A model generated the notes under the pieces. It had not been told where the DNA came from, ran no database searches, and saw only the letters and a list, made by a program, of their open reading frames with translations. Shown one piece after another: positions 1 through 29,232 of a DNA stretch of 35,156 nucleotides; position 1 is the stretch's first letter; each line of letters starts with the position of its first letter. The stretch comes from a virus. A program made the position numbers and the translations under genes. The stretch spans positions 1 through 35,156 of IMG/VR virus record IMGVR_UViG_3300021519_000030, one strand, 5' to 3'.

Positions 1-98
1 CGCTGCCGCCGCCTACGCCGCCGCTTACGCCGCCGTCGCCGCCGACGCCGCCGACGCCGCCGCCGTCGCCGCCGTCGCCGCCGACGCCGCTGTCGCTG
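1..98. repeat. GCC-rich triplet/nonamer repeat at left edge
   Basis: The first ~98 bases are almost entirely GCC triplets interrupted every third codon by TAC, GAC, GTC or GCT, giving an imperfect 9-bp period. On the plus strand one frame reads as Ala-Ala-X (X = Tyr, Asp, Val or Ala). Such simple sequence is prone to slippage and to assembly breaks, which may be why the sequence begins here. Confidence 0.7.
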
Positions 99-115
99 CC
101 GATCATGTAAAGTAA
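2..115 (+). CDS. Ala-rich C-terminus of a truncated protein (5' partial)
   Basis: The frame starting at base 2 stays open to a TAA at 113-115 and encodes about 37 residues of Ala-Ala-X repeats with Tyr, Asp and Val at the third positions, ending DHVK. Alanine-rich tails with this AAY/AAD pattern occur at the C-termini of some phage proteins, so this is read as the end of a gene that begins outside the window. The next frame is also open to a TAA at 108-110 and would give a Pro-rich Pro-Pro-Thr/Ser repeat, so the frame choice is a judgement. No function can be assigned. Confidence 0.4.
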   Translation, partial: AAAAYAAAYAAVAADAADAAAVAAVAADAAVAADHVK

Positions 116-11161: not shown

Positions 11162-12705
11162 CAGGGGGCCTCTTGAGGCGCGAGGGCGTTAACGCCGGAC
11201 GTAGCGCCGGGGATGAGCCAGTTACGGATAGTGGATGTCGGTAGGGGTGGTGGCAACGTGGCGCCCACATTCCGCGCGCGTATGCCTTCCGCGAATCTGT
11301 TGGCTATGGGCACGGCCTGAGCCCCTCTCGCGCTCTCGGCCCATTTACCCGCCGCGCCGGGAACCGCAAAAGCCAGCGATCCGAAAGGGCCTCCTACTGC
11401 ATGGCCCGCTGTACCCGCCAGAGCCGCCATGACATTGCCGAACATACTGGACCGGCTAAATCCGGGTAAAAGGTTTTCTAACGATTTAAGCGTGCGGGAG
11501 CCTATATCGCCCGCAGCTATATCAGTTATGACCTTCTGCTCCGCAACCGAGTACCGCGCCAAACGGTCCTCGTTCCGCGCCAGCGAGGAGAATTGGGTGC
11601 GCAGGGCCTTGATAGGGTCATCCGTCGTGGATACCTCCGCTCTATGGATAAGCGTTTCGATTTCCGAACTTTTGGCCGCCGTACCGAAATCGTTCCGGGC
11701 GCCTATGAACGCCTCACGCACAGCGTCCGGTGACGCAGAAGGCGCAGACGGGTTCTTGGGCACCAGATGCGAGGGGTCGGCCCTTGTAAGCATTTCATCA
11801 AGGCTACGGGAGATTGTAGACAGAACCTTTTTCTCCCCGCCGGATGCGTCATACGCCAGGTCACGCGCTTTCCCCCGCAGCGCATCAAGTTGCGTGAGAG
11901 ACTGCGGCGTTGCTGCGCGGTCCTCAAGAACCTTCAGGAAGCTCCGCGCCGCTGGGTCGAGTTCTTCTACGTACCTTGATGTTTCCAGCGTCTTCTTGAT
12001 ATCCGTGACTGCGGCCTGAAGCACCGTTGGCGAGACAGCCAGATTGGAGTCATCTACAATCTTGTAATTATTTAGCGCACGGGTAAACATTTCGCTCGTG
12101 GTCGCTGTAGCGGGTGCGGCGGGGCGCAACACGTTCCTTACCGCGCTTACCGCGCCCGATATTGCGGGCGAAAGCGGGTCTATAACCGTGCTTGCGCCTT
12201 GGGCCAATTTCGAGGTTGTAGACAGTCCAGCAGCTCTCGCCGCCCCCGCTACTTTTGACAATCCCCCCGCTATAGGCCCCGCGAACATGGGCCCTAACGC
12301 CCGACCCGTAGCCACATCTTGCGATGCCGGTTCGCCAAACATGTAGTTGGCGATTCCATGCGAAGTCGGAAGTACGGTATCCTTATGAAACATGTTTTCA
12401 ATGTCGCCGAACAAACCAGGAGTAGCCGGTATGCCCTGCAATGCGCCGATTCCAATATCAGCGTATCTCCCCGCCAATTCTGCCGCCGTTGGAACGCGCG
12501 GCGTCTCAGCAGGATTTGCAAACGCTTCTTCTACTTGCTTTCGAAACCCACCGCGCAACCGTCCTTCAGAAGACGCTTTCCGCGTAGATGGCATACCTTC
12601 GCCTGCCGCTGGCGCGTCAAGCGTAAACCCAGCGGGCAGTTCGCCGGTCACAGGCGCAACGGGCGAAGCGTCAAGCGTAAAACCGGGGGGGAGGGATGAG
12701 GCCAT
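11161..12705 (-). CDS. putative internal virion / DNA ejection protein, 514 aa
   Basis: Large Ala/Gly-rich protein at the end of the ejection cluster. The N-terminus carries two copies of a short motif, LPPGFTLDASP (4-14) and LPAGFTLDAPA, and a later low-complexity core with glycine-rich, membrane-compatible stretches (PMFAGPIAGGLSKVAGAARA; MAALAGTAGHAVGGPFGSLA). A helical central region (KKTLETSRYVEELDPAARSF) separates them. This composition suits ejection proteins that leave the capsid and line a channel through the host envelope. The start at 12705 is chosen because it forms a TAATG overlap with the upstream gene; an ATG at 12720 adds five residues. No enzymatic motif was seen. Confidence 0.65.
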   Translation of the reverse strand: MASSLPPGFTLDASPVAPVTGELPAGFTLDAPAAGEGMPSTRKASSEGRLRGGFRKQVEEAFANPAETPRVPTAAELAGRYADIGIGALQGIPATPGLFGDIENMFHKDTVLPTSHGIANYMFGEPASQDVATGRALGPMFAGPIAGGLSKVAGAARAAGLSTTSKLAQGASTVIDPLSPAISGAVSAVRNVLRPAAPATATTSEMFTRALNNYKIVDDSNLAVSPTVLQAAVTDIKKTLETSRYVEELDPAARSFLKVLEDRAATPQSLTQLDALRGKARDLAYDASGGEKKVLSTISRSLDEMLTRADPSHLVPKNPSAPSASPDAVREAFIGARNDFGTAAKSSEIETLIHRAEVSTTDDPIKALRTQFSSLARNEDRLARYSVAEQKVITDIAAGDIGSRTLKSLENLLPGFSRSSMFGNVMAALAGTAGHAVGGPFGSLAFAVPGAAGKWAESARGAQAVPIANRFAEGIRARNVGATLPPPLPTSTIRNWLIPGATSGVNALAPQEAP

Positions 12706-14258
12706 TATTGCGGTGTCCATTGACCGTTGCGGAAAATAATTTTTGCGCCGTTAGGGCCAGTCGCCGTTTGACCCTCAGTGAACGTTGCGGCTCGCCCGTT
12801 AACCGTAGGTTTTTCCGCAGTTTTGGCAACCCCTGCGGGCGCGCCGATTTCAACATCCTTGCCTGTAGCCCAAGCATCTAAGGTATTTTTAAGTTGACGG
12901 AAACCGGCAAGACGCTCTTCAGCAGGCGTATTTGGATTGCCTATGTCCGCAACTAATCCTTGAATAAATTTACGGTCTTCGTTTGAGATGCCCGCGCTAA
13001 GTTTACCGTTGAGAAGCTCAAAAGTCATTTGTTTAGCGATATGGTCCAACTGGGCAATGTTTTTTTTACCTGGCGTCACGCCGCCACCAACCGAAGCAGG
13101 TAACATTCCTTTAACTGATGCGCCTGCGTTTTCTATAAGGCCGGATGTAGACGCGTTAATTAAAGCTTCTATTTTTGCCGCGTTTTCGCCGCCTGCCGTA
13201 TGAAGAAGTTGTTGCGCACCTTCCTTTCGGTTGGCTTTAGCGGTTTCTTGCGCCGCCATAGCCTCAGCCGTATTCTTTTCGTAAACCGCGCGCGCCACCG
13301 GGATCATGTTAGCCGTTGCAGACGGTGCAGCAACAGGCGCCTGAGCCACAGGCATGGCCGCAGGCGCGGCAAATTGTGGAGGCGCGGGCGCGGCCATCAT
13401 ATTCGCCGGAGCAGCTTGACCAGCTATCATGTTTGCCTGTTGCGTTATAGGCCCGGGGGAAGGCGCGGGGGCAACGCCCGGGGCGACAACGGAGGCACCG
13501 CCGGGGGCAACGCCCGGGGCGACAACGGAGGCACCGCCGGGGGCGACGGGCGGAGCGCCAGAGCGAGAGCCCATAAAAACGCCAGCCGGATTGTATACGT
13601 CTACGCGCCGCTCACCCGTAGTGGGGTCGGTGTACGGGTCTAGTCTCTTTGCCTTGGCCGCCTCTGCGGCAGCGTGGGCCGCTACACTCTGCGCGGCGGT
13701 CATCGCCTGTTCGCGTGCGGTATCTTCATTGTATGTCGGGCCGAGATGGCTCGCCCATCCCGGCACCAGCCCAACAGCCTCTTGGCGAAACTTAGCATAT
13801 TCGGCGTCTCTTAGTTCGGGGGGCAACGCATTTATGGCATTTAATCTCCTAGATAACATGTCCACATTGGCCACTGCGGCGGTTTGCTTGGCGGCGGCGC
13901 TAACGTCGCCTTGCGCGCGAATCTCGCCCAGCGTTTTCTGATTCTGGAACGGTATCTGGCCTATCCGGCCCCGCATCTCTTGTTGCTCAAGGGTTGCTTT
14001 TATGTTGGCGTTCTGTTGTGCGTCAAATTGTTCGCCCACGCGCGGGGATATACGGTAGGCTGCCGCGCGGGCCTCCTGCGAGTCACGGTTGATGCCGCTA
14101 CCCAGAAGCTGGCGCAGTTGGTTCTGCTCGCCCTGACCGCGCTGGTATTCCGCCAACTGCGCCTGATGCAGCGCCAACTGGTTGAACTGCGCGTACTGCT
14201 GTATCGGATCTGGCAGTTTCATCGGTTGAATCTGAGATGCGATGCTGAAGTCGGCCAT
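12705..14258 (-). CDS. putative DNA ejection protein with shared N-terminal tag, 517 aa
   Basis: Predicted virion-internal protein. It opens with MADFSIASQIQPMKLPDP and QQYAQFNQL, a tag nearly identical to that of the transglycosylase gene upstream. Residues 30-200 are Gln/Ala-rich and probably coiled-coil (LEQQEMRGRIGQIPFQNQKT). The middle is Pro/Ala/Gly-rich with a 12-residue unit repeated twice (VAPGGASVVAPG) and a run of APAPP-type sequence. The C-terminal ~180 residues are helical and end with TFTEGQTATGPNGAKIIFRN, resembling a small beta motif. Gene position among the ejection proteins and composition suggest passage into the host envelope with the DNA. The specific P22 counterpart (gp16 or gp20) cannot be decided. 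Confidence 0.65.
   Translation of the reverse strand: MADFSIASQIQPMKLPDPIQQYAQFNQLALHQAQLAEYQRGQGEQNQLRQLLGSGINRDSQEARAAAYRISPRVGEQFDAQQNANIKATLEQQEMRGRIGQIPFQNQKTLGEIRAQGDVSAAAKQTAAVANVDMLSRRLNAINALPPELRDAEYAKFRQEAVGLVPGWASHLGPTYNEDTAREQAMTAAQSVAAHAAAEAAKAKRLDPYTDPTTGERRVDVYNPAGVFMGSRSGAPPVAPGGASVVAPGVAPGGASVVAPGVAPAPSPGPITQQANMIAGQAAPANMMAAPAPPQFAAPAAMPVAQAPVAAPSATANMIPVARAVYEKNTAEAMAAQETAKANRKEGAQQLLHTAGGENAAKIEALINASTSGLIENAGASVKGMLPASVGGGVTPGKKNIAQLDHIAKQMTFELLNGKLSAGISNEDRKFIQGLVADIGNPNTPAEERLAGFRQLKNTLDAWATGKDVEIGAPAGVAKTAEKPTVNGRAATFTEGQTATGPNGAKIIFRNGQWTPQ
13471..13542. repeat. 36-bp perfect tandem duplication
   Basis: Bases 13471-13506 and 13507-13542 are identical. In frame this duplicates twelve residues (VAPGGASVVAPG type) in the Pro/Ala-rich linker of the ejection protein. 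Perfect identity points to a recent duplication. Confidence 0.85.
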
Positions 14259-14272
14259 TGTCGTTAATCCCT
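14194..14272. repeat. 79-bp leader block repeated at three gene starts
   Basis: A 79-bp block covering the ribosome-binding region, the ATG and about 22 codons occurs colinearly and without gaps at 14194-14272, 14895-14973 and 15529-15607, all on the minus strand. The first and third differ at 14 of 79 positions by my count, nearly all transitions; the second is more diverged. The shared upstream part reads AGGGGTTAACGACA, or close to it, before ATG. Confidence 0.8.
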
Positions 14273-14314
14273 ATAATTTCGTAGTCTCGGCTGGTTCGCT
14301 AAATACAAGATGCG

Positions 14315-14959
14315 TTAATACATCCCCCCGCCGGAACCGCGAGGTCCAAGCCCCCCTTGGGCTGGAGCGTAGGGCATGCCCCATCCGGGATTTGGACCGC
14401 GAGGTCCAAGCCCCCCTTGAGCTGGAGCGTAGGGCAGGGGCTCGCGAGGCAGACCGCTGATGCCGGGATCGCGAGGTCCAAGCCCCCCTTGGGCTGGAGC
14501 GTAGGGCAGGGGCTCGCGAGACAGATCGCTGATGCCGGGATCGCGAGGTCCAAGCCCCCCTTGGGCTGGAGCGTAGGGCATGCCCCATCCGGGATCGCGA
14601 GGCAGACCGCTGATGCCGGGGTAGTTTGGATTGTAGGGCACGCCGCCTCCGGGGGGAAAGCCGTGGCCGTAGGGCATCCCTCTCCCTTGGTCGTGGCGGT
14701 TCCATCCGTACCCAGAAAACCGGCGCCCCCCCTGCGGCTCTTGACGCCGCGCTAACTGATTGTACTGGTCGTACTGTCCATACGCAGACTGCTGATTGTA
14801 CTGGTCGTACTGTCCATACGCAGACTGTCCGTACGCAGGCTGCTGGTTACCCCCTTGCGGCTCTTGACGCGGCGCTAGCTGATTGTACTGGCTGTACTGC
14901 TGCATCGGGTCCGCGTGTTGCGGAGGATAGGTCTGCGGTGCAAAGTTGAAGTCGGCCAT
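14315..14959 (-). CDS. Tyr/Gln/Gly/Pro-rich repeat protein with shared N-terminal tag
   Basis: 214 aa, almost wholly low complexity. It begins MADFNFAPQTYPPQHADPMQ, a diverged copy of the tag on its two neighbours. Residues ~43-70 repeat a 12-residue QSAYGQYDQYNQ unit, resembling prion-like domains. The C-terminal half holds four copies of PYAPAQGGLGPR joined by 20- or 24-residue periods (DPGISGLPREPL linkers). No globular domain is evident. It is likely disordered and, by tag and position, a virion or ejection-associated protein. It has a normal start with the same leader as its neighbours and no stop over the whole repeat, which supports it being a real gene despite its composition. Confidence 0.6.
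   Translation of the reverse strand: MADFNFAPQTYPPQHADPMQQYSQYNQLAPRQEPQGGNQQPAYGQSAYGQYDQYNQQSAYGQYDQYNQLARRQEPQGGRRFSGYGWNRHDQGRGMPYGHGFPPGGGVPYNPNYPGISGLPRDPGWGMPYAPAQGGLGPRDPGISDLSREPLPYAPAQGGLGPRDPGISGLPREPLPYAPAQGGLGPRGPNPGWGMPYAPAQGGLGPRGSGGGMY
14341..14620. repeat. 60/72-bp tandem repeats encoding PYAPAQGGLGPR units
   Basis: The word GAGGTCCAAGCCCCCCTT starts at 14341, 14401, 14473 and 14545, with one base differing in the second copy. The periods are therefore 60, 72 and 72 bp (20, 24 and 24 codons). These encode the C-terminal repeats of the 214-aa protein. Confidence 0.85.
14756..14827. repeat. 36-bp tandem repeat encoding QSAYGQYDQYNQ units
   Basis: A 36-bp unit beginning CTGATTGTACTGGTCGTACT is found at 14756-14791 and again at 14792-14827, essentially identical, with a partial third unit following. 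It encodes the Tyr/Gln-rich segment of the 214-aa protein. Confidence 0.8.
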
Positions 14960-14981
14960 TGTCGTTAACCCCTACAGAGCG

Positions 14982-15593
14982 TTATTGCCGATTAAGTTCA
15001 TTAACGGACCCGCCAGGCGCAAGCGCGTTTAGAAGCGGGCTATACCCGGCCATAAACCTGCGGACGTATACCGGCGCGGTGGTGCCCAAGATATCAGACC
15101 TGTTACCTGCCCGCGACTGAGGCTTCCCCGTAAACCAGACGGAGGCCGCGTCCTCGACGTTGCCATACCGCGCAAAGCTTTTACCGAATTGCGTTTCGAA
15201 CACACGTTCCTGAGCATCAGGGTTAGCAAGAAACTCTGCGGGGGTCATAGACTTACCGAGAGCCTCCCGCGTCCAAGAGGGGATGTTGGCCCCCATCACC
15301 TGATACTTGCCATGCGCGCGGTCGCCGCTTTCGGTGGCTGGCCCCATTGCGACATACGGGTTAGCCCAACCCCGCGACTCAATACCTGCTATGGCGGCCT
15401 TTGCACGGTCCATGTCGAAAGGCCCCCGCGCGCCCGGCTGCTGCGCGCCCGGCTGCTGCGCGCCGGGCGCCCTTGAAAGGTCCCTATCAGCATACGCCTG
15501 CAGGTCCCGCAGCATCGCAAACTGGTTGTACTGCTGTAGCGGGTCCGGCAGCTTTACCGGCTGGACCTGAGATGCAATGCTAAAGTCGGCCAT
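14982..15593 (-). CDS. virion-associated transglycosylase with shared N-terminal tag
   Basis: 203 aa. Residues 1-28 are the tag (MADFSIASQVQPVKLPDP, then QQYNQF), followed by a linker with a repeated PGAQQ unit (about 43-55). The lysozyme-like domain follows: AKAAIAGIESRGWANPY (Glu as candidate catalytic acid), ATESGDRAHGKYQVMGANIP and FETQFGKSFARYG. This is the pattern of structural lytic enzymes that open the peptidoglycan for DNA ejection. The place in the ejection cluster, between the gp7-like and the other ejection proteins, supports a role at infection rather than lysis. The start has the conserved leader AGGGGTTAGCAACA. Confidence 0.8.
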   Translation of the reverse strand: MADFSIASQVQPVKLPDPLQQYNQFAMLRDLQAYADRDLSRAPGAQQPGAQQPGARGPFDMDRAKAAIAGIESRGWANPYVAMGPATESGDRAHGKYQVMGANIPSWTREALGKSMTPAEFLANPDAQERVFETQFGKSFARYGNVEDAASVWFTGKPQSRAGNRSDILGTTAPVYVRRFMAGYSPLLNALAPGGSVNELNRQ

Positions 15594-15605
15594 TGTTGCT
15601 AACCC

Positions 15606-16361
15606 CTAGGGCGTGCCGGACATGAACGGGCCTTCACCTGTGTAGCCCCCCGCGCCATAACTGTACGGGTTCGTATTTTGAACAGGTCTTAACCTACTTA
15701 GGTAGTTATTCGTAGTGTACTGGCTTAGGCCCTGCGAAAGCGCGTTATTGACGCCGTTCGCGATGCCGACGTACCCAGACGCCTGCGCCTGCCCCGCGTT
15801 GTTAATATTCGTCGCCGCAGCCGTGCCGTACTGCCCCGCAGCCGTTGCGGTGCCTGCCGCCGCCGCCTGCCCGATCCGCGTCAGATCGCTGTAGCCCGTG
15901 CGTTCGGCTTCCTTCTCTTGCATAAACCTATTGTAAGCGTTGGTGTATTCGTTGGACGCTTCCTTTTGACCGTAACTCTGCGCCGCCTTAAGCGCCGCCC
16001 CCGAGATCAGGCCACCGCGCGCAGCGGCGTTGGCGTTCAAACCTTCTAAACCTTTGCTTAACCGAAAAGAATAGCCAGGATCTGCCGTGAACTGGTCCAT
16101 GCCGAACCGCTGGTTGTACCCGCCGTAGTTGGCTGCGGTCGTGTTCCCGCCCACGCCAAGGTAAGTCCGCAAGGCGTTTAGACCCTCGCCGCCAGCTTCA
16201 GTGTAGGGAGCCAGATCCTTGCGCTGCTGATTGTACATCTGCAACTGCGTGGCGTTCGCCTGATTGGCGGCGTCGCGCTGCGCGTTTGAGGCTTGACTGG
16301 CGCCGTAGATAGACGCGCCCGCGCCCAGCACGCCAGCGGCTCCTATCGCGATTGCTACCAT
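15606..16361 (-). CDS. DNA transfer / ejection protein (P22 gp7-like)
   Basis: 251 aa with the typical composition of podovirus DNA-transfer proteins: a hydrophobic glycine-rich N-terminus (AIAIGAAGVLGAGASIYGAS), a Gln/Asn/Ala-rich helix (NAQRDAANQANATQLQMYNQ), then YTEAGGEGLNALRTYLG and DPGYSFRLSKGLEGLNANAA, a segment found in many phage injection proteins. The tail is Gly/Tyr-rich. It would be packaged in the virion and ejected early with the genome. GGAG lies 6 bp before the ATG. Function is by similarity of pattern and position. Confidence 0.75.
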   Translation of the reverse strand: MVAIAIGAAGVLGAGASIYGASQASNAQRDAANQANATQLQMYNQQRKDLAPYTEAGGEGLNALRTYLGVGGNTTAANYGGYNQRFGMDQFTADPGYSFRLSKGLEGLNANAAARGGLISGAALKAAQSYGQKEASNEYTNAYNRFMQEKEAERTGYSDLTRIGQAAAAGTATAAGQYGTAAATNINNAGQAQASGYVGIANGVNNALSQGLSQYTTNNYLSRLRPVQNTNPYSYGAGGYTGEGPFMSGTP

Positions 16362-16362
16362 T

Positions 16363-16821
16363 TCAGTCTCCTATCCATTTTGAATAATACACCTCTATAG
16401 GCGTCATATCCAGAAACTTGAACAGCCGCGACGCATCCTTATGTAGTTTGGACCCATAGAGGATGCGTTGTACTTTCCGTCTTCTAGCTTCTTTTTCGAC
16501 CGCGCGAAATAGCTTAACCCCCGCAAAGCCACCCCGTATATCAGGATGCGTCCAGAATATGTCCATTGTGAGGGTCAAGCAAGTGCTATAGTGAAGCCCC
16601 GGCGCGACTATGCCGTTGAAATATCCTACCAAACGCCCCTTCTCGCGGAGTGTCACGACCAGAAGTTCGCCCGCAGCCTCGCGCGCGGCATATACGTTGT
16701 ATTGTGGTGAGAGAGGCACTCTATCTTTGTCGAGCGCCAATTCTTCCCAATGCGCGCGGAACAGTGGTTGAACTTCCTGAACGAAGGAAGACCACGATTC
16801 AACTTGCGCCGTTATCATCAT
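16363..16821 (-). CDS. GNAT-family N-acetyltransferase
   Basis: 152 aa. GNAT motif A is recognisable: FWTHPDIRGGFAGVKLFRAV (89-108), with Arg96-Gly-Gly-x-x-Gly as the acetyl-CoA pyrophosphate loop, preceded by strands VVTLREKGRLVGYFNG and followed by RILYGSKLHKDASRLFKFLD. GNATs of this kind are often found among tail and ejection genes of P22-like phages; the substrate is unknown. It overlaps the oxygenase stop (ATGATG); AAGGAG sits 3 bp from the first ATG (16821) and 6 bp from the second (16818), so the second may be the real start. Confidence 0.75.
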   Translation of the reverse strand: MMITAQVESWSSFVQEVQPLFRAHWEELALDKDRVPLSPQYNVYAAREAAGELLVVTLREKGRLVGYFNGIVAPGLHYSTCLTLTMDIFWTHPDIRGGFAGVKLFRAVEKEARRRKVQRILYGSKLHKDASRLFKFLDMTPIEVYYSKWIGD

Positions 16822-17360
16822 GCGCTCCTTATATCAACGATGCAGACAATCCGGTCATCGCAACTGTTATTGACGACAGAATGCTCTTCGCGGTTGTTGA
16901 TAAGCCAGATGTCGCCCGTGCGGAAATTGACAGTCTCCTCCCCTATATGGAATAACGCGCCGGGCAAACTTTGCAGAGCAATCTGATAACGCGTGTAGAA
17001 CGTCGCGGGCGCGCCCATGTCCGTATGAGGTGTTATTGTATCTCCAACAGGGAGTTTCGTTACTATGCAGCGGCCCAATTGTACACCATCGACCTTGCGC
17101 ATCAGCTCAAGAATTAGCCCCCTTAGAGGCTTCAACGCGTCCCATGCCCGGTAAGGCACTACTTGTATGTCGTTGACGACAGATCCTGTAGGGTCGTTGA
17201 ACATGAGCCATATATCATGCACGGCAGCGTGCGCGGTATTAGGGTGTCTTGTGCGTAAAGTATGCTCATCCCATAGATCGCTGTTGACCGCCAACGCATG
17301 AAGTATTGGCGTTACGTCTACATTATCCGCAATCTTCAAGAAATTACGCATGAAAATCAT
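16818..17360 (-). CDS. 2OG-Fe(II) oxygenase, Asp/Asn beta-hydroxylase type
   Basis: 180 aa with the double-stranded beta-helix signature of the aspartyl/asparaginyl beta-hydroxylase family. Metal ligands are His112-x-Asp114 in TITPHTDMGA and His160 in NNREEHSVVNN; Arg170 in DDRIVCIVD is the expected 2-oxoglutarate-binding residue. All are present, so it should be active. The target is unknown: a virion protein, a host protein or a small molecule. It is coupled to the GNAT gene downstream and preceded by an 18-codon frame with an ATGA overlap. A second ATG at 17351 (MRNFLKI) is an alternative start. Confidence 0.8.
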   Translation of the reverse strand: MIFMRNFLKIADNVDVTPILHALAVNSDLWDEHTLRTRHPNTAHAAVHDIWLMFNDPTGSVVNDIQVVPYRAWDALKPLRGLILELMRKVDGVQLGRCIVTKLPVGDTITPHTDMGAPATFYTRYQIALQSLPGALFHIGEETVNFRTGDIWLINNREEHSVVNNSCDDRIVCIVDIRSA

Positions 17361-23515: not shown

Positions 23516-24280
23516 TTAACGGAATTTCGATGCTTCCTGCTTCTTTATCTGTCGCGCTCGATCTGCGGCAATCCATTCTGACGTGGTCATCGTTTTGATG
23601 GCCCTTGGGTCTGTAGTGTCATAACTGGTATTGCCGTTGTGTCGGGCGGTAACAGGTGAAATAGGCGCGGGCGCACTCGAAGATTTTCTGACCTGCGGAT
23701 TTGAAACCAGATTGGCTTCAATTCTGCCGATCTCCTTGGCCTGCAAGATAGGCGGCAAACGAGAAATGCGGGTTGCTTCGTTGGGGTTAGAACCTAGATA
23801 ATACGCTACATCAGGGCCAACATCAGAAGACTGTATTGTCTCAGCCATCACGGTCGTAATGCGGAGGTTGGGGTTATACGCGACTTGTTCAAAGTCATCG
23901 TATTTGCCCCGCGCGTCCTCTTCGCGGTCGTGGTAGGCATCGACGTATTCAGACTTCTGCTTCTGAGTTTCCCGGTCCCGTAGTAGTTGTTCGGCGTACG
24001 CTTGCGCGTAGGTTTCGACCGAATCAAATTGTTCAGGCGGCGGTAACGCAGAAGGCGCAACAGGAACAGCCCGTTGGGTTTGCTCCCGCTCCCATTTTCG
24101 TTGCTCTCTTGCGAGGCGCTTGCCGACTATAACGTCCAGTTCTTCTTGGGTAAAAGACTTTGGCGTTTCTGTCGTTTGATCATCCGGCTGTTTAGTCTCA
24201 GCAACAGAAGCCGCCGTGGCGTCCATGTCGCGCGCGGATACAGGTGCGTCCGCTGGTGTGTTTAGGCTATCGTCGTTCAT
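23516..24280 (-). CDS. scaffolding protein (P22 gp8-like)
   Basis: 254 aa, strongly charged and helical, located directly upstream of the coat gene as P22 gp8 is. The N-terminal ~40 residues are disordered and acidic, then SFTQEELDVIVGKRLAREQR and WEREQTQR form a coiled-coil-like helix, a start shared by many phage scaffolds. A second helical part (SVETYAQAYAEQLLRDRETQ) follows. The C-terminus is basic (AADRARQIKKQEASKFR), fitting the coat-binding helix-turn-helix of gp8. GGAG lies 8 bp before the ATG. Confidence 0.75.
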   Translation of the reverse strand: MNDDSLNTPADAPVSARDMDATAASVAETKQPDDQTTETPKSFTQEELDVIVGKRLAREQRKWEREQTQRAVPVAPSALPPPEQFDSVETYAQAYAEQLLRDRETQKQKSEYVDAYHDREEDARGKYDDFEQVAYNPNLRITTVMAETIQSSDVGPDVAYYLGSNPNEATRISRLPPILQAKEIGRIEANLVSNPQVRKSSSAPAPISPVTARHNGNTSYDTTDPRAIKTMTTSEWIAADRARQIKKQEASKFR

Positions 24281-26116: not shown

Positions 26117-27124
26117 TCAGTTAAACGCTGTCCCGCTCCCATTACCTGTGGGTAACGTTGCGGGGTTGGCGTACTTGGTCCCAAATCCAGCACTCCAGGG
26201 GTAGGTAGATATATATGGAGTGGTGGTGTGGGCCACAGCGATATCTGTTCCTGCGGGGCTAAACGCTACCCCGTTTCCGGTACTTGCGGGCAGCGTTGAG
26301 GGGTTGGCGTACTTGGTCCCAAATCCAGCACTCCAAGGGTAGGCGGCGATAAATGGAGTGGTGGCGTGGGCCACAGCGATATCTGTTCCTGCGGGGCTAA
26401 ACGCTACCCCGTTTCCGGTACTTGCGGGCAGCGTTGCGGGGTTGGCGTACTTGGTCCCAAATCCAGCACTCCAAGGGTAGGCGGCGATAAATGGAGTGGT
26501 GGTGTGGGCCACAGCGATATCTGTTCCTGCGGGATTAAACGTCACCCCATGGCCAACATTTGCGGGCAGCGTTGAGGGGTTGGCGTACTTGGTCCCAAAT
26601 CCAGCACTCCAAGGGTAGGCGGCGATAAATGGAGTGGTGGTGTGGGCCACAGCGATAGCTGTTCCTGCGGGGTTAAACGCTGCCCCGTTTCCGACACCTG
26701 CGGGCAGCGTTGCGGGGTTGGCGTACTTGGTCCCAAATCCAGCACTCCAGGGGTAGGTAGATATATATGGAGTGGTGGCGTGGGCCACAGCGATATCTGT
26801 TCCTGCGGGGCTAAACGCTACCCCGTTTCCGGTACTTGCGGGCAGCGTTGCGGGGTCGGAGTATTTGGTCCCAAATCCAGCACTCCAAGGGTAGGCGGCG
26901 ATAAATGGAGTGGTGGTGTGGGCCACAGCGATAGCTGTTCCTGCGGGGCTAAACGCTACCCCGTTTCCGGTACCTGCGGGCAGCGTTGCGGGGTCGGAGT
27001 ATTTGGTCCCAAATCCAGCACTCCAGGGGTAGGTAGATATATATGGAGTAACGTCGTGGCTCACAGCGATAGCTGTTATTTTTATTCCGGCACTATAACC
27101 CGTGAACAGGTTCAGGATGCCCAT
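26117..27124 (-). CDS. seven-bladed beta-propeller repeat protein
   Basis: 335 aa. After a short N-terminus (MGILNLFTGYSAGIKITAIA) there are seven repeats with a 46-residue period, of the form TYPWSAGFGTKYANPATLP, then GNGVAFSPAGTDIAVAHTTT. FSPAGTDIAVAH is a WD40-like strand pattern. The seventh repeat stops at GTAFN and lacks its final strand; the N-terminal TAIAVSHDVTP would supply it, closing a ring in the usual velcro manner. Two repeat types alternate irregularly: PYIST in blades 1, 3 and 7, PFIAA in 2, 4, 5 and 6. The ATG at 27124 overlaps the fibre gene stop (TAATG) and has GGGGGAGG upstream; an upstream frame extension to 27172 is rejected. It may be a fibre-tip, receptor-binding or fibre-assembly protein. 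Confidence 0.75.
   Translation of the reverse strand: MGILNLFTGYSAGIKITAIAVSHDVTPYISTYPWSAGFGTKYSDPATLPAGTGNGVAFSPAGTAIAVAHTTTPFIAAYPWSAGFGTKYSDPATLPASTGNGVAFSPAGTDIAVAHATTPYISTYPWSAGFGTKYANPATLPAGVGNGAAFNPAGTAIAVAHTTTPFIAAYPWSAGFGTKYANPSTLPANVGHGVTFNPAGTDIAVAHTTTPFIAAYPWSAGFGTKYANPATLPASTGNGVAFSPAGTDIAVAHATTPFIAAYPWSAGFGTKYANPSTLPASTGNGVAFSPAGTDIAVAHTTTPYISTYPWSAGFGTKYANPATLPTGNGSGTAFN
26120..27043. repeat. 138-bp tandem repeats (6.7 copies)
   Basis: The segment containing TTGGTCCCAAATCCAGCACT recurs every 138 bp (46 codons) with very few differences. The differences cluster at a few codons and recur in different combinations among copies, suggesting gene conversion or unequal recombination between units. 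Confidence 0.9.
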
Positions 27125-29232
27125 TAGGTGAGCCCTCCCCCGGTAACGACAAACGTATTGGACGCGACGCAAAGGATTGTGCAGAGCCCTCGCTGCGCCA
27201 GCGTTCGGTTTCCAGTAGTTGCTGTTCCCACCAGATACATCGTGGTGGACGCCCCCTGCGTGATTGTCTGGTTGGAAGCCGAGTTGTTAAAAATTGTCAC
27301 GGTATCGCCCACGGAAAAGACGCTTGCAGGGACCGTCACGCCGCCCGTGGTGATCGAGATGTGCTTACCGTTGTCGCCCGCGACCAGTATGTAGGCCGAA
27401 GTCTGCGAATTAACAGGAATATTTAGATAGCCGATGCTCGCGCTAGCGGGCGGGAACGTCATCACAGTGCTATCGGTGCCCGCCAATGTCAGCGTGTTAC
27501 TGACAGTCAAGGTCTTCGAAGTCGTGCCCCCGGCAACAGTAAACCCAACTGCGGCAGCCGCCAGCGTCAGGCCGTTGACACTCGTCGGAGTGATCGCGCC
27601 AAGGGTCAGGCTGATGGCTGGCGTTGTTGTGGCGGTCGCCACAGACCCAGATACGCCATTGGCAGTCGTGACGGAGACCGATGTGACAGTGCCTGCGGCA
27701 GCGGCTGCCCATGCTGCCGTTGTACCGTTTGATGTCAGCACCTGCCCATTCGTGCCAATGGCAAGGCGCGTAGAGCTATTGGTGCCGTTGCCGACAATCA
27801 GATCGCCGGTCGTTGTCACAGGCGCCAGCGCATTGAACCCCGCCGTGGCCGTAGTCTGGCCAGTGCCGCCGTTGGCAACGGCAAGTGTTCCTGCAAGTGT
27901 TATGGTGCCGGATGTAATAACGGGTCCGCCACTGGTAGTTAAACCCGTTGTGCCGCCGCTAACGGCAACACTGGTAACCGTGCCTAGCCCGCCTACAGTA
28001 GTCCATGTAGGTGCGCCAGCGCCTCCAGACGTAAGCACTTGCCCTGACGTGCCAGCCGCCGAATAGGCAAGGGCAGTGCCCGTGCCATATGGGACAGTAC
28101 CCGCCGTAGGTGTTGCGGTGGTGTTGGTGCCGCCGTTAGCAATAGCAAGCGTACCGGCAAGCGTTATAGTGCCCGACGTAGTGACAGGGCCGCCACTATA
28201 GGTTAATCCTGTTGTGCCGCCGCTAACATTGACACTTGTAACAGTGCCAGTTCCAGAGGGGGTGACCCATGTGGGCGCCGCAACGCCATTAGATTGAAGA
28301 AATTGGCCCGCCGTGCCTGCGGTCAAGTAAGCAAGCGCAGATCCGGTTCCGTAAAGCAGACTGCCATTTGCCGGTGTAGATGCAAGGCCGGTGCCGCCAT
28401 TAGCAATAGCAAGCGTACCCGTCACGCCAGTCAAAAGAGGAAGCCCGGTAGCATTTGTCAGCGTGCCGCTGGATGGTGTGCCAAGTGCGCCGCCATTGAC
28501 CACAACAGCGCCCGCAGACCCTACATTTACGCCCAGCGCCGTTACAACGCCCGTACCAGTTGTTGTTGTTGCGGGCGATGCGCCCGCGCCGCCGCCAATC
28601 ATGATGGCGTTTGCGGTCAACAGAGCTGAAGTTGCCCACGTTGACGCGCTACTAAAGTATGGGATGCCCCCGGAAGTTCCAGCAACTGTCAGAGCCAACG
28701 TGCCTGAGTTCGTAATGGGAGACCCGGATACCGAAATAAGGCCGCCCGTAAACGACTGAGCTACACTGGTAACCGAGCCCGCCCCTGCGGCGTCCCATGT
28801 AGGCGCGCCCGCACCACCAGATTTAAGCACATACCCCGCCGTACCAACCGCCGAGTACGCCAACGTAGAGCCGTTACCATATGGTATTGTTCCCGCCGTA
28901 GGTGCGTCGGCGGGTCCAAGCTGAAGCGTTTTCGTGGCCGAAAGCGTGATGAATACATTCTTAACGCCTGCTTGAAAAGAAACGACAAGATTGCTGTTCG
29001 AAGACGACAAGATGGTGGTGCGGGCAAAAACATTGGCGCTGGAATAGGTGCCAATACCCACTTCCCATTCGGCTGTAGTTTGGCTTTGTATGCAGTAATA
29101 AAACGTGTCCGCAGCGCTTAATACGGTAGAAAAAGTCCGATATCCCGTAGGCGATGCGCCGGAGACAGTAATGCTCCCGGTGCCCGTTGTGGTCGAAGTG
29201 TCCTTGACACGATCTGCGGTTACAAAGGCCAT
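27124..29232 (-). CDS. repetitive tail fibre protein, 702 aa
   Basis: The N-terminal ~105 residues (MAFVTADRVKDTSTTTGTGS; GYRTFSTVLSAADTFYYCIQ; EWEVGIGTYSS; FARTTILSSSN) form a fibre-attachment head common in phages. Residues ~105-560 are degenerate repeats of about 65 residues with units such as TAGTVPYGTGTALAYSAAGT, SGGAGAPTW and LAIANGGTG, typical of a long trimeric beta fibre. The C-terminal ~90 residues (GKHISITTGGVTVPASVF; TIFNNSASNQTITQGAS) look like a capping domain. It lies between the portal-DUF5856 pair and the beta-propeller gene, which it overlaps by one base. It is probably the main adhesin shaft or a side fibre. Confidence 0.75.
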   Translation of the reverse strand: MAFVTADRVKDTSTTTGTGSITVSGASPTGYRTFSTVLSAADTFYYCIQSQTTAEWEVGIGTYSSANVFARTTILSSSNSNLVVSFQAGVKNVFITLSATKTLQLGPADAPTAGTIPYGNGSTLAYSAVGTAGYVLKSGGAGAPTWDAAGAGSVTSVAQSFTGGLISVSGSPITNSGTLALTVAGTSGGIPYFSSASTWATSALLTANAIMIGGGAGASPATTTTGTGVVTALGVNVGSAGAVVVNGGALGTPSSGTLTNATGLPLLTGVTGTLAIANGGTGLASTPANGSLLYGTGSALAYLTAGTAGQFLQSNGVAAPTWVTPSGTGTVTSVNVSGGTTGLTYSGGPVTTSGTITLAGTLAIANGGTNTTATPTAGTVPYGTGTALAYSAAGTSGQVLTSGGAGAPTWTTVGGLGTVTSVAVSGGTTGLTTSGGPVITSGTITLAGTLAVANGGTGQTTATAGFNALAPVTTTGDLIVGNGTNSSTRLAIGTNGQVLTSNGTTAAWAAAAAGTVTSVSVTTANGVSGSVATATTTPAISLTLGAITPTSVNGLTLAAAAVGFTVAGGTTSKTLTVSNTLTLAGTDSTVMTFPPASASIGYLNIPVNSQTSAYILVAGDNGKHISITTGGVTVPASVFSVGDTVTIFNNSASNQTITQGASTTMYLVGTATTGNRTLAQRGLCTILCVASNTFVVTGGGLT

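Follow-up and report, generated by a model that had tools for sequence, protein, structure and literature searches.

Why should three consecutive genes of one phage open with the same leader and the same N-terminal residues and then run on into different proteins? The question is raised by the 35,156 nucleotides of IMG/VR record IMGVR_UViG_3300021519_000030 (the window, by which we mean this whole stretch), which belong to an uncultured P22-type podovirus as evidenced by Pfam matches to the P22 coat and portal proteins, and which also encode a gp10-like head-closure protein (phrog_578). Colinear blocks of leader plus N-terminus open three consecutive minus-strand genes starting at 15593, 14959 and 14258, whose coordinates and translations in the initial annotation are correct. 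We refer to these genes as TG, LC and gene B (the latter encoding the 517-aa protein) and to the shared N-terminus as the tag. The blocks and the genes around them are as follows:

15606 to 16361, minus strand: gene A, a gp7-like DNA-ejection protein of 251 aa (phrog_598, E=2.6e-33)
15531 to 15609, minus strand: tag block 1, comprising leader with ribosome-binding site, ATG and first ~21 codons of TG (MADFSIASQVQPVKLPDPLQQ...), 64/79 identical to block 3 and matched by the relatives' profile at E=5e-8
14982 to 15593, minus strand: TG gene, 203 aa, the tag followed by an A/P/G/Q linker and, by domain homology, a lysozyme-like/transglycosylase domain
14897 to 14975, minus strand: tag block 2, in front of the LC gene, 58/79 identical to block 3
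14315 to 14959, minus strand: LC gene, 214 aa, which repeat analysis resolves into the tag, repeats of the tag's tail and YAPAQGGLGPR x4
14196 to 14274, minus strand: tag block 3, the native 5' end of the gp20-position gene, matching gene B of all close relatives
12705 to 14258, minus strand: gene B, 517 aa, a putative gp20-position ejection protein without the hydrolase cassette, from alignment to relatives L001, L004 and L029
11161 to 12720, minus strand: gene C, the gp16-position gene, 519 aa and without the tag, assigned by synteny with P22 7-20-16 and with relatives

Compared without gaps from -16 to +62 around each ATG (79 nt), the blocks of TG and LC agree at 56/79 positions, in addition to the identities with gene B given above. 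In local DNA alignment the pairs score 93, 78 and 65, whereas none of 2000 dinucleotide shuffles exceeded 34, which places the shared blocks far above chance. TG and gene B differ at 15 of 79 positions, not at 14 as first reported, but almost all of the differences are transitions as described (13 versus 2 transversions), and the first 22 residues indeed differ at only 3 positions, all conservatively. Similarity between LC and gene B is alignable up to approximately codon 37. A tag profile built from relatives alone recognised the N-terminus of gene B (8e-17) as well as that of TG, while the LC N-terminus gave no match at E<=0.1. TG and most of LC are also present in a second contig, IMGVR_UViG_3300021602_000058, which matches the window over 11,851 bp at 99.97% identity and rules out that the arrangement is an artefact of one assembly. 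This contig is the only twin and, being nearly identical, it provides no usable population variation for selection.

P22 orders its ejection genes 7-20-16 and its gp7 also falls in phrog_598 (2e-95). Given this order and the assignment of gene A, which lies directly upstream of the tagged genes, gene B takes the gp20 position and gene C the gp16 position; gene B thus lies where a gp20-type gene is expected, between gp7-like and gp16-like genes and behind gp10. The tagged genes are located among ejection genes as originally proposed, and by synteny TG, LC and gene B are probably all internal or virion proteins. Two tagged genes between the gp7-like gene and gene B are found in the window only. 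Gene B matched neither of the gp20 profiles phrog_917 and phrog_2534 (0 families), and we therefore ascribe it to gp20 by position only; phrog_2534 was matched by 19 of 61 relatives, in those inspected via the C-terminal part of the profile only. A tblastn search of phage records with the 517-aa protein returned no match. On the other side of gene A, the stretch between the fibre-like and gp7-like genes (16363-17360, minus strand) encodes a GNAT acetyltransferase (PF00583) and a product that looks like a hydroxylase/oxygenase; relatives have other small genes in this place. Elsewhere in the window, positions 26117-27172 (minus strand) encode a 351-aa, possibly propeller-like protein of about seven 46-residue repeats of the type TTPFIAAYPWSAGFGTKYANPATLPA, with DNA repeats of 138 bp that are mostly 78-95% identical, and the very end of the record (window positions 1-105) is a short tandem repeat rich in GCC/GAC.

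Relatives were gathered as loci holding a gp7-like gene, and the tag profile was run over the resulting 185 loci. In the 64 distinct relatives that were aligned, the tag occurs on the gene after the gp7-like (phrog_598) gene alone, and among the 107 loci with a profile match, a second tagged ORF is seen only in the window and its own sub-loci. Near relatives have the N-terminus MADFSIASQIRPMQLPDPLQQYAQ and distant ones a sequence like MAxIDPSIALGVKPVQIENPL, and N-termini of this kind are also present in phage DSL-LC05 and in gp28 of Rhodoferax phage P26218, an isolate. TAGGG..TAACGACA, the leader, is gene B's own ribosome-binding region and is conserved in relatives, so that in most phages the block is a gene start and not a free-standing tag. 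The shared block is hence simply the normal 5' end of the gp20-position gene directly behind the gp7-like gene, consisting of a ribosome-binding leader, an extended N-terminal arm and the first turns of a helix.

Conservation in the tagged family peaks at residues 1-15, where mean pairwise identity is 0.41 versus mostly 0.12-0.3 elsewhere. Beyond these residues the family is a mosaic, in which bodies have been swapped under an unchanged N-terminus. In the relatives L108/L113 and L109/L115 the bodies are alike (similarity 0.89 and 0.94), while the tags and the gp7-like proteins differ. The 5' ends of gene B in these pairs read MADF..IQPY versus MVEY/MVDYNTTLPQLQQF, which places a crossover no more than ~30 codons into the gene. 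Searches for other phages with several tagged genes, by DNA pattern, by the profile over the 185 loci and by an all-against-all comparison of N-termini (the output of which was mostly low-complexity noise), found none beyond the window's own population; of 450 DNA-pattern matches in bacterial genomes, none was confirmed as a relative. The triple arrangement is thus seen in one phage population, without independent recurrence.

The initial annotation considered the bodies behind the three tags to be unrelated. For the LC body no homologues were found besides the twin contig, but the TG body has its homologue within proteins related to the 517-aa protein, as one of their domains. The parts of the two proteins concerned are:

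15024 to 15428, minus strand: SLT/lysozyme-like domain of TG, residues 56-190 with Glu72 invariant, predicted from model and alignment
13647 to 14207, minus strand: helical domain of gene B, residues 18-204, following the extended arm (1-17), predicted in the AlphaFold model
13326 to 13583, minus strand: predicted disordered linker of gene B, residues 226-311, corresponding in the alignment to the relatives' cassette slot (SLT type A, type B or GH24)
12867 to 13307, minus strand: C-terminal helical domain of gene B, residues 318-464, from alignment and AlphaFold model

The TG domain is 64-74% identical to domains inside the relatives' tagged protein; residues 37-184 align with residues 215-362 of L029 at 64% identity, and with four more relatives at 65-68%. 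TG is predicted to have an SLT/lysozyme-like fold behind a disordered stretch of residues 1-55, as its model resembles Slt-type lytic transglycosylases and the catalytic domain of a Ralstonia chitinase (VIA Z 8-9.3) and, more distantly, T7 gp16 in the gp15-gp16 core complex (6yt5_G, Z 6.2), at a moderate model confidence and with Foldseek E-values of 0.02 or weaker. Glu72, which lies in a GIES motif after the first helix, is invariant in a 15-row alignment (A5) and nearly invariant in another (A6), and by analogy may be the catalytic residue. Searches with the TG sequence found no family at E<=0.1 in curated Pfam, SLT or other, and no match in the PDB.

In relatives a wall-hydrolase cassette, where present, sits after a helical domain of ~200 residues. 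The slot contains the TG-type SLT (type A) in 5 of 61 members, type B in 9, a GH24-like domain in 1 and no cassette in 46, the window included. Gene B aligns to relatives on both flanks of the slot, its N-terminal part matching L001, L004 and L029 and its residues 240-503 being 53% identical to residues 409-694 of L001, without a cassette in between. A phage-lysozyme-like (GH24-type) cassette fills the slot in L007 (2083-4128), close relatives of which have a different hydrolase or none. The ancestral-type protein, as judged by alignment, is a single polypeptide in relatives, composed of arm, helical domain, linker with optional cassette and C-terminal domain. Since the TG domain lies inside the relatives' tagged protein and the slot is empty in the 517-aa protein, the two genes, as far as alignments can tell, complement each other as parts of one ancestral protein, and each bears a copy of the tag. 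In type the TG tag goes with that of its own phage's 517-aa protein (identity 0.80) and not with the tags of the SLT-bearing relatives L029 and L026 (0.39 and 0.52).

LC is of a different nature. It has no family match in PHROGs or Pfam, and its last repeat is rich in Pro and Gly. Between 14321 and 14776 (minus strand), the central part of the protein repeats the tail of the tag in frame (QYxQYNQLAxRQEPQGG) and then gives way to four almost identical copies of YAPAQGGLGPR. It may be a relic.

Of the selection on the peptide that had been suggested from the conservative differences, what is supported is that the tags of TG and gene B differ more by synonymous than by amino acid change. Over 22 codons TG and gene B have a dS of ~1 and a dN of ~0.07 (dN/dS w=0.07), and neutral simulation gives 6.7 expected amino acid differences versus 3 observed (P=0.0057); over 24 codons amino acid change is likewise below neutral (P=0.00175). 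The TG tag also keeps the family-conserved residues M1, D3, A7, Q9 and P16. For the LC tag, purifying selection was not significant (P=0.22). Part of the synonymous divergence between TG and gene B may predate their split, having accumulated in separate full-length genes before recombination, and the low dN/dS is thus no proof of constraint on the TG copy. A tree of the 88-nt starts, with supports mostly under 60, did not give the order of duplication.

Building on the anatomy, homology and complementary domain content of TG and gene B, we infer an order of events, retention of the arm by selection and a docking function. We posit that the gp20-position gene was duplicated and that the copies shed complementary parts, the 517-aa gene retaining the arm, the helical domain and the C-terminal domain, and the 203-aa gene the arm and the lysozyme-like cassette, while a third copy would have fused to, or grown into, the low-complexity repeat protein LC. 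The arm would be a docking peptide that brings ejection proteins into the assembling procapsid, probably via the scaffolding protein, in which case the detached hydrolase would have had to keep it for packaging and ejection. The arm is predicted to be disordered on TG and extended on the 517-aa protein, as expected of a peptide signal, and by analogy with known systems it is plausible that the shared start is a docking or loading signal retained when the protein split. We consider this explanation as a whole to be probable on balance. The likeliest partner of such a signal would be encoded by:

23516 to 24280, minus strand: head scaffolding protein (phrog_8865, E=2.2e-28)

The initial annotation had suggested docking on the portal as one role. 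In P22 the scaffolding protein is needed for procapsid entry of all three ejection proteins while the portal is not (PMC8402733, PMC12005531), and by this analogy the scaffold is a likelier partner than the portal. Two counterpoints to the docking peptide come from the same phage, namely that the tag motif is absent from P22 gp20 when searched with the profile, and that the assembling fragment of gp20 has 314 residues, against a signal of ~25.

It had also been proposed that the tag is a general portal- or procapsid-targeting label duplicated onto unrelated cargoes. Three genes with differing bodies, one of them a repeat protein of unknown origin, gave this reading its appeal, and duplication of a gene start is borne out here. 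Yet each locus of the 64 distinct relatives has one tagged gene, so that outside this phage the tag is confined to one protein family, an outcome that the initial annotation had itself named as speaking against its proposal; the TG body is native to that family, being a former domain of it and not a different cargo, and P22 ejection proteins assemble without the portal. We therefore regard a general cargo tag as very unlikely.

The main rival is that the tag docks the hydrolase not onto the scaffold but onto the ejection proteins themselves (the 517-aa oligomer or the gp7-like protein), acting as a subunit-to-subunit arm of the ejectosome. It takes its model from T7, where the N-terminal 'molecular tape' of gp16 carries a transglycosylase on the gp15 tunnel (PMC8954989), and is favoured by the match of the TG fold to T7 gp16 and by the extended arm with a long helix behind it in the model. 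Tag similarity also correlates more strongly with the adjacent gp7 (rho 0.41; gp10 0.32) than with the part of the protein that comes right behind the tag (rho 0.22), with a bootstrap interval of the difference that includes zero, but the link with gp7 may be plain genetic linkage. Moreover, in most relatives gene B has no hydrolase to dock and the arm is kept nonetheless, and we judge this rival to be rather improbable. The second rival sees the shared start as a recombination leftover, the leader and gene start being a crossover site or a handy translation-initiation cassette and the TG and LC peptides having no function of their own. Conservation of the leader as gene B's ordinary ribosome-binding site, the crossovers at the tag/body border in L108/L113 and L109/L115 and the lack of significant constraint on the LC tag are all consistent with this. 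It fits poorly with a TG tag whose residues change less than neutral and retain the family-conserved positions, albeit that the synonymous divergence in that comparison could predate the split, and it appears unlikely to us. We thus favour duplication and complementary loss with the arm kept for procapsid entry.

To our knowledge, the known needs for protein choice by a P22-type procapsid are the scaffolding protein and N-terminal parts of gp20 and gp7. In the window, a minimal-signal experiment has seemingly been done by nature, as a split-off wall-cutting domain starts with its parent's first ~25 residues. We tentatively suggest, while regarding it as somewhat doubtful, that these residues are an autonomous loading signal, enough to bring a free enzyme into a scaffold-built P22-type head and a counterpart of the T4 and P1 capsid-targeting sequences, copied when the protein split. 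The candidate signal is short and testable, and Rhodoferax phage P26218 offers a relative in culture whose gp28 has this type of N-terminus. Should it prove sufficient, the peptide would serve as a tool to load cargo into P22-like particles. The locus would also be a clear example of ejection-protein fission via duplication and complementary loss.

Among known systems, P22 is the closest in layout, sharing the P22-type coat, portal and scaffolding genes, the gene order behind the head-closure gene gp10, a gene A of the gp7 family and a gene B at the gp20 position. P22 differs in that its gp20 is without the motif and that it has three ejection genes, compared with five in the window, three of them with a common start; the window's 517-aa protein, in turn, lacks a match to the gp20 family profiles. 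Procapsid entry of P22 gp20 proceeds via its N-terminal 314 residues, and N-terminal fragments of both gp20 and gp7 assemble (PMC8402733). The internal proteins IPI-IPIII of T4 resemble the window's genes in having a short common N-terminus on different bodies, which in T4 serves entry into the scaffolding core and is the sole common part of these proteins (PMC3012670); in the window the N-terminus is shared by three genes, by LC weakly, and synteny suggests an internal location. T4 differs in recruiting many unrelated defence proteins and being able to carry foreign ones, whereas the window has one family and one split-off enzyme, with a putative role. In P1 DarB, the N-terminal 30 residues, a signal of similar length, suffice to bring a reporter into the capsid (PMC9024508), although P1 is a phage of another type, in which no scaffolding protein as such has been identified, and the function in the window is a proposed one. 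Lastly, ejection proteins such as T7 gp16 and the gp15-like proteins of K1E/K1-5 swap hydrolase domains (PMC8954989), a mobility mirrored by the variable slot of the gp20-position protein, but in the window the hydrolase appears to have left the ejection protein altogether and become a gene of its own with a copy of its parent's N-terminus.
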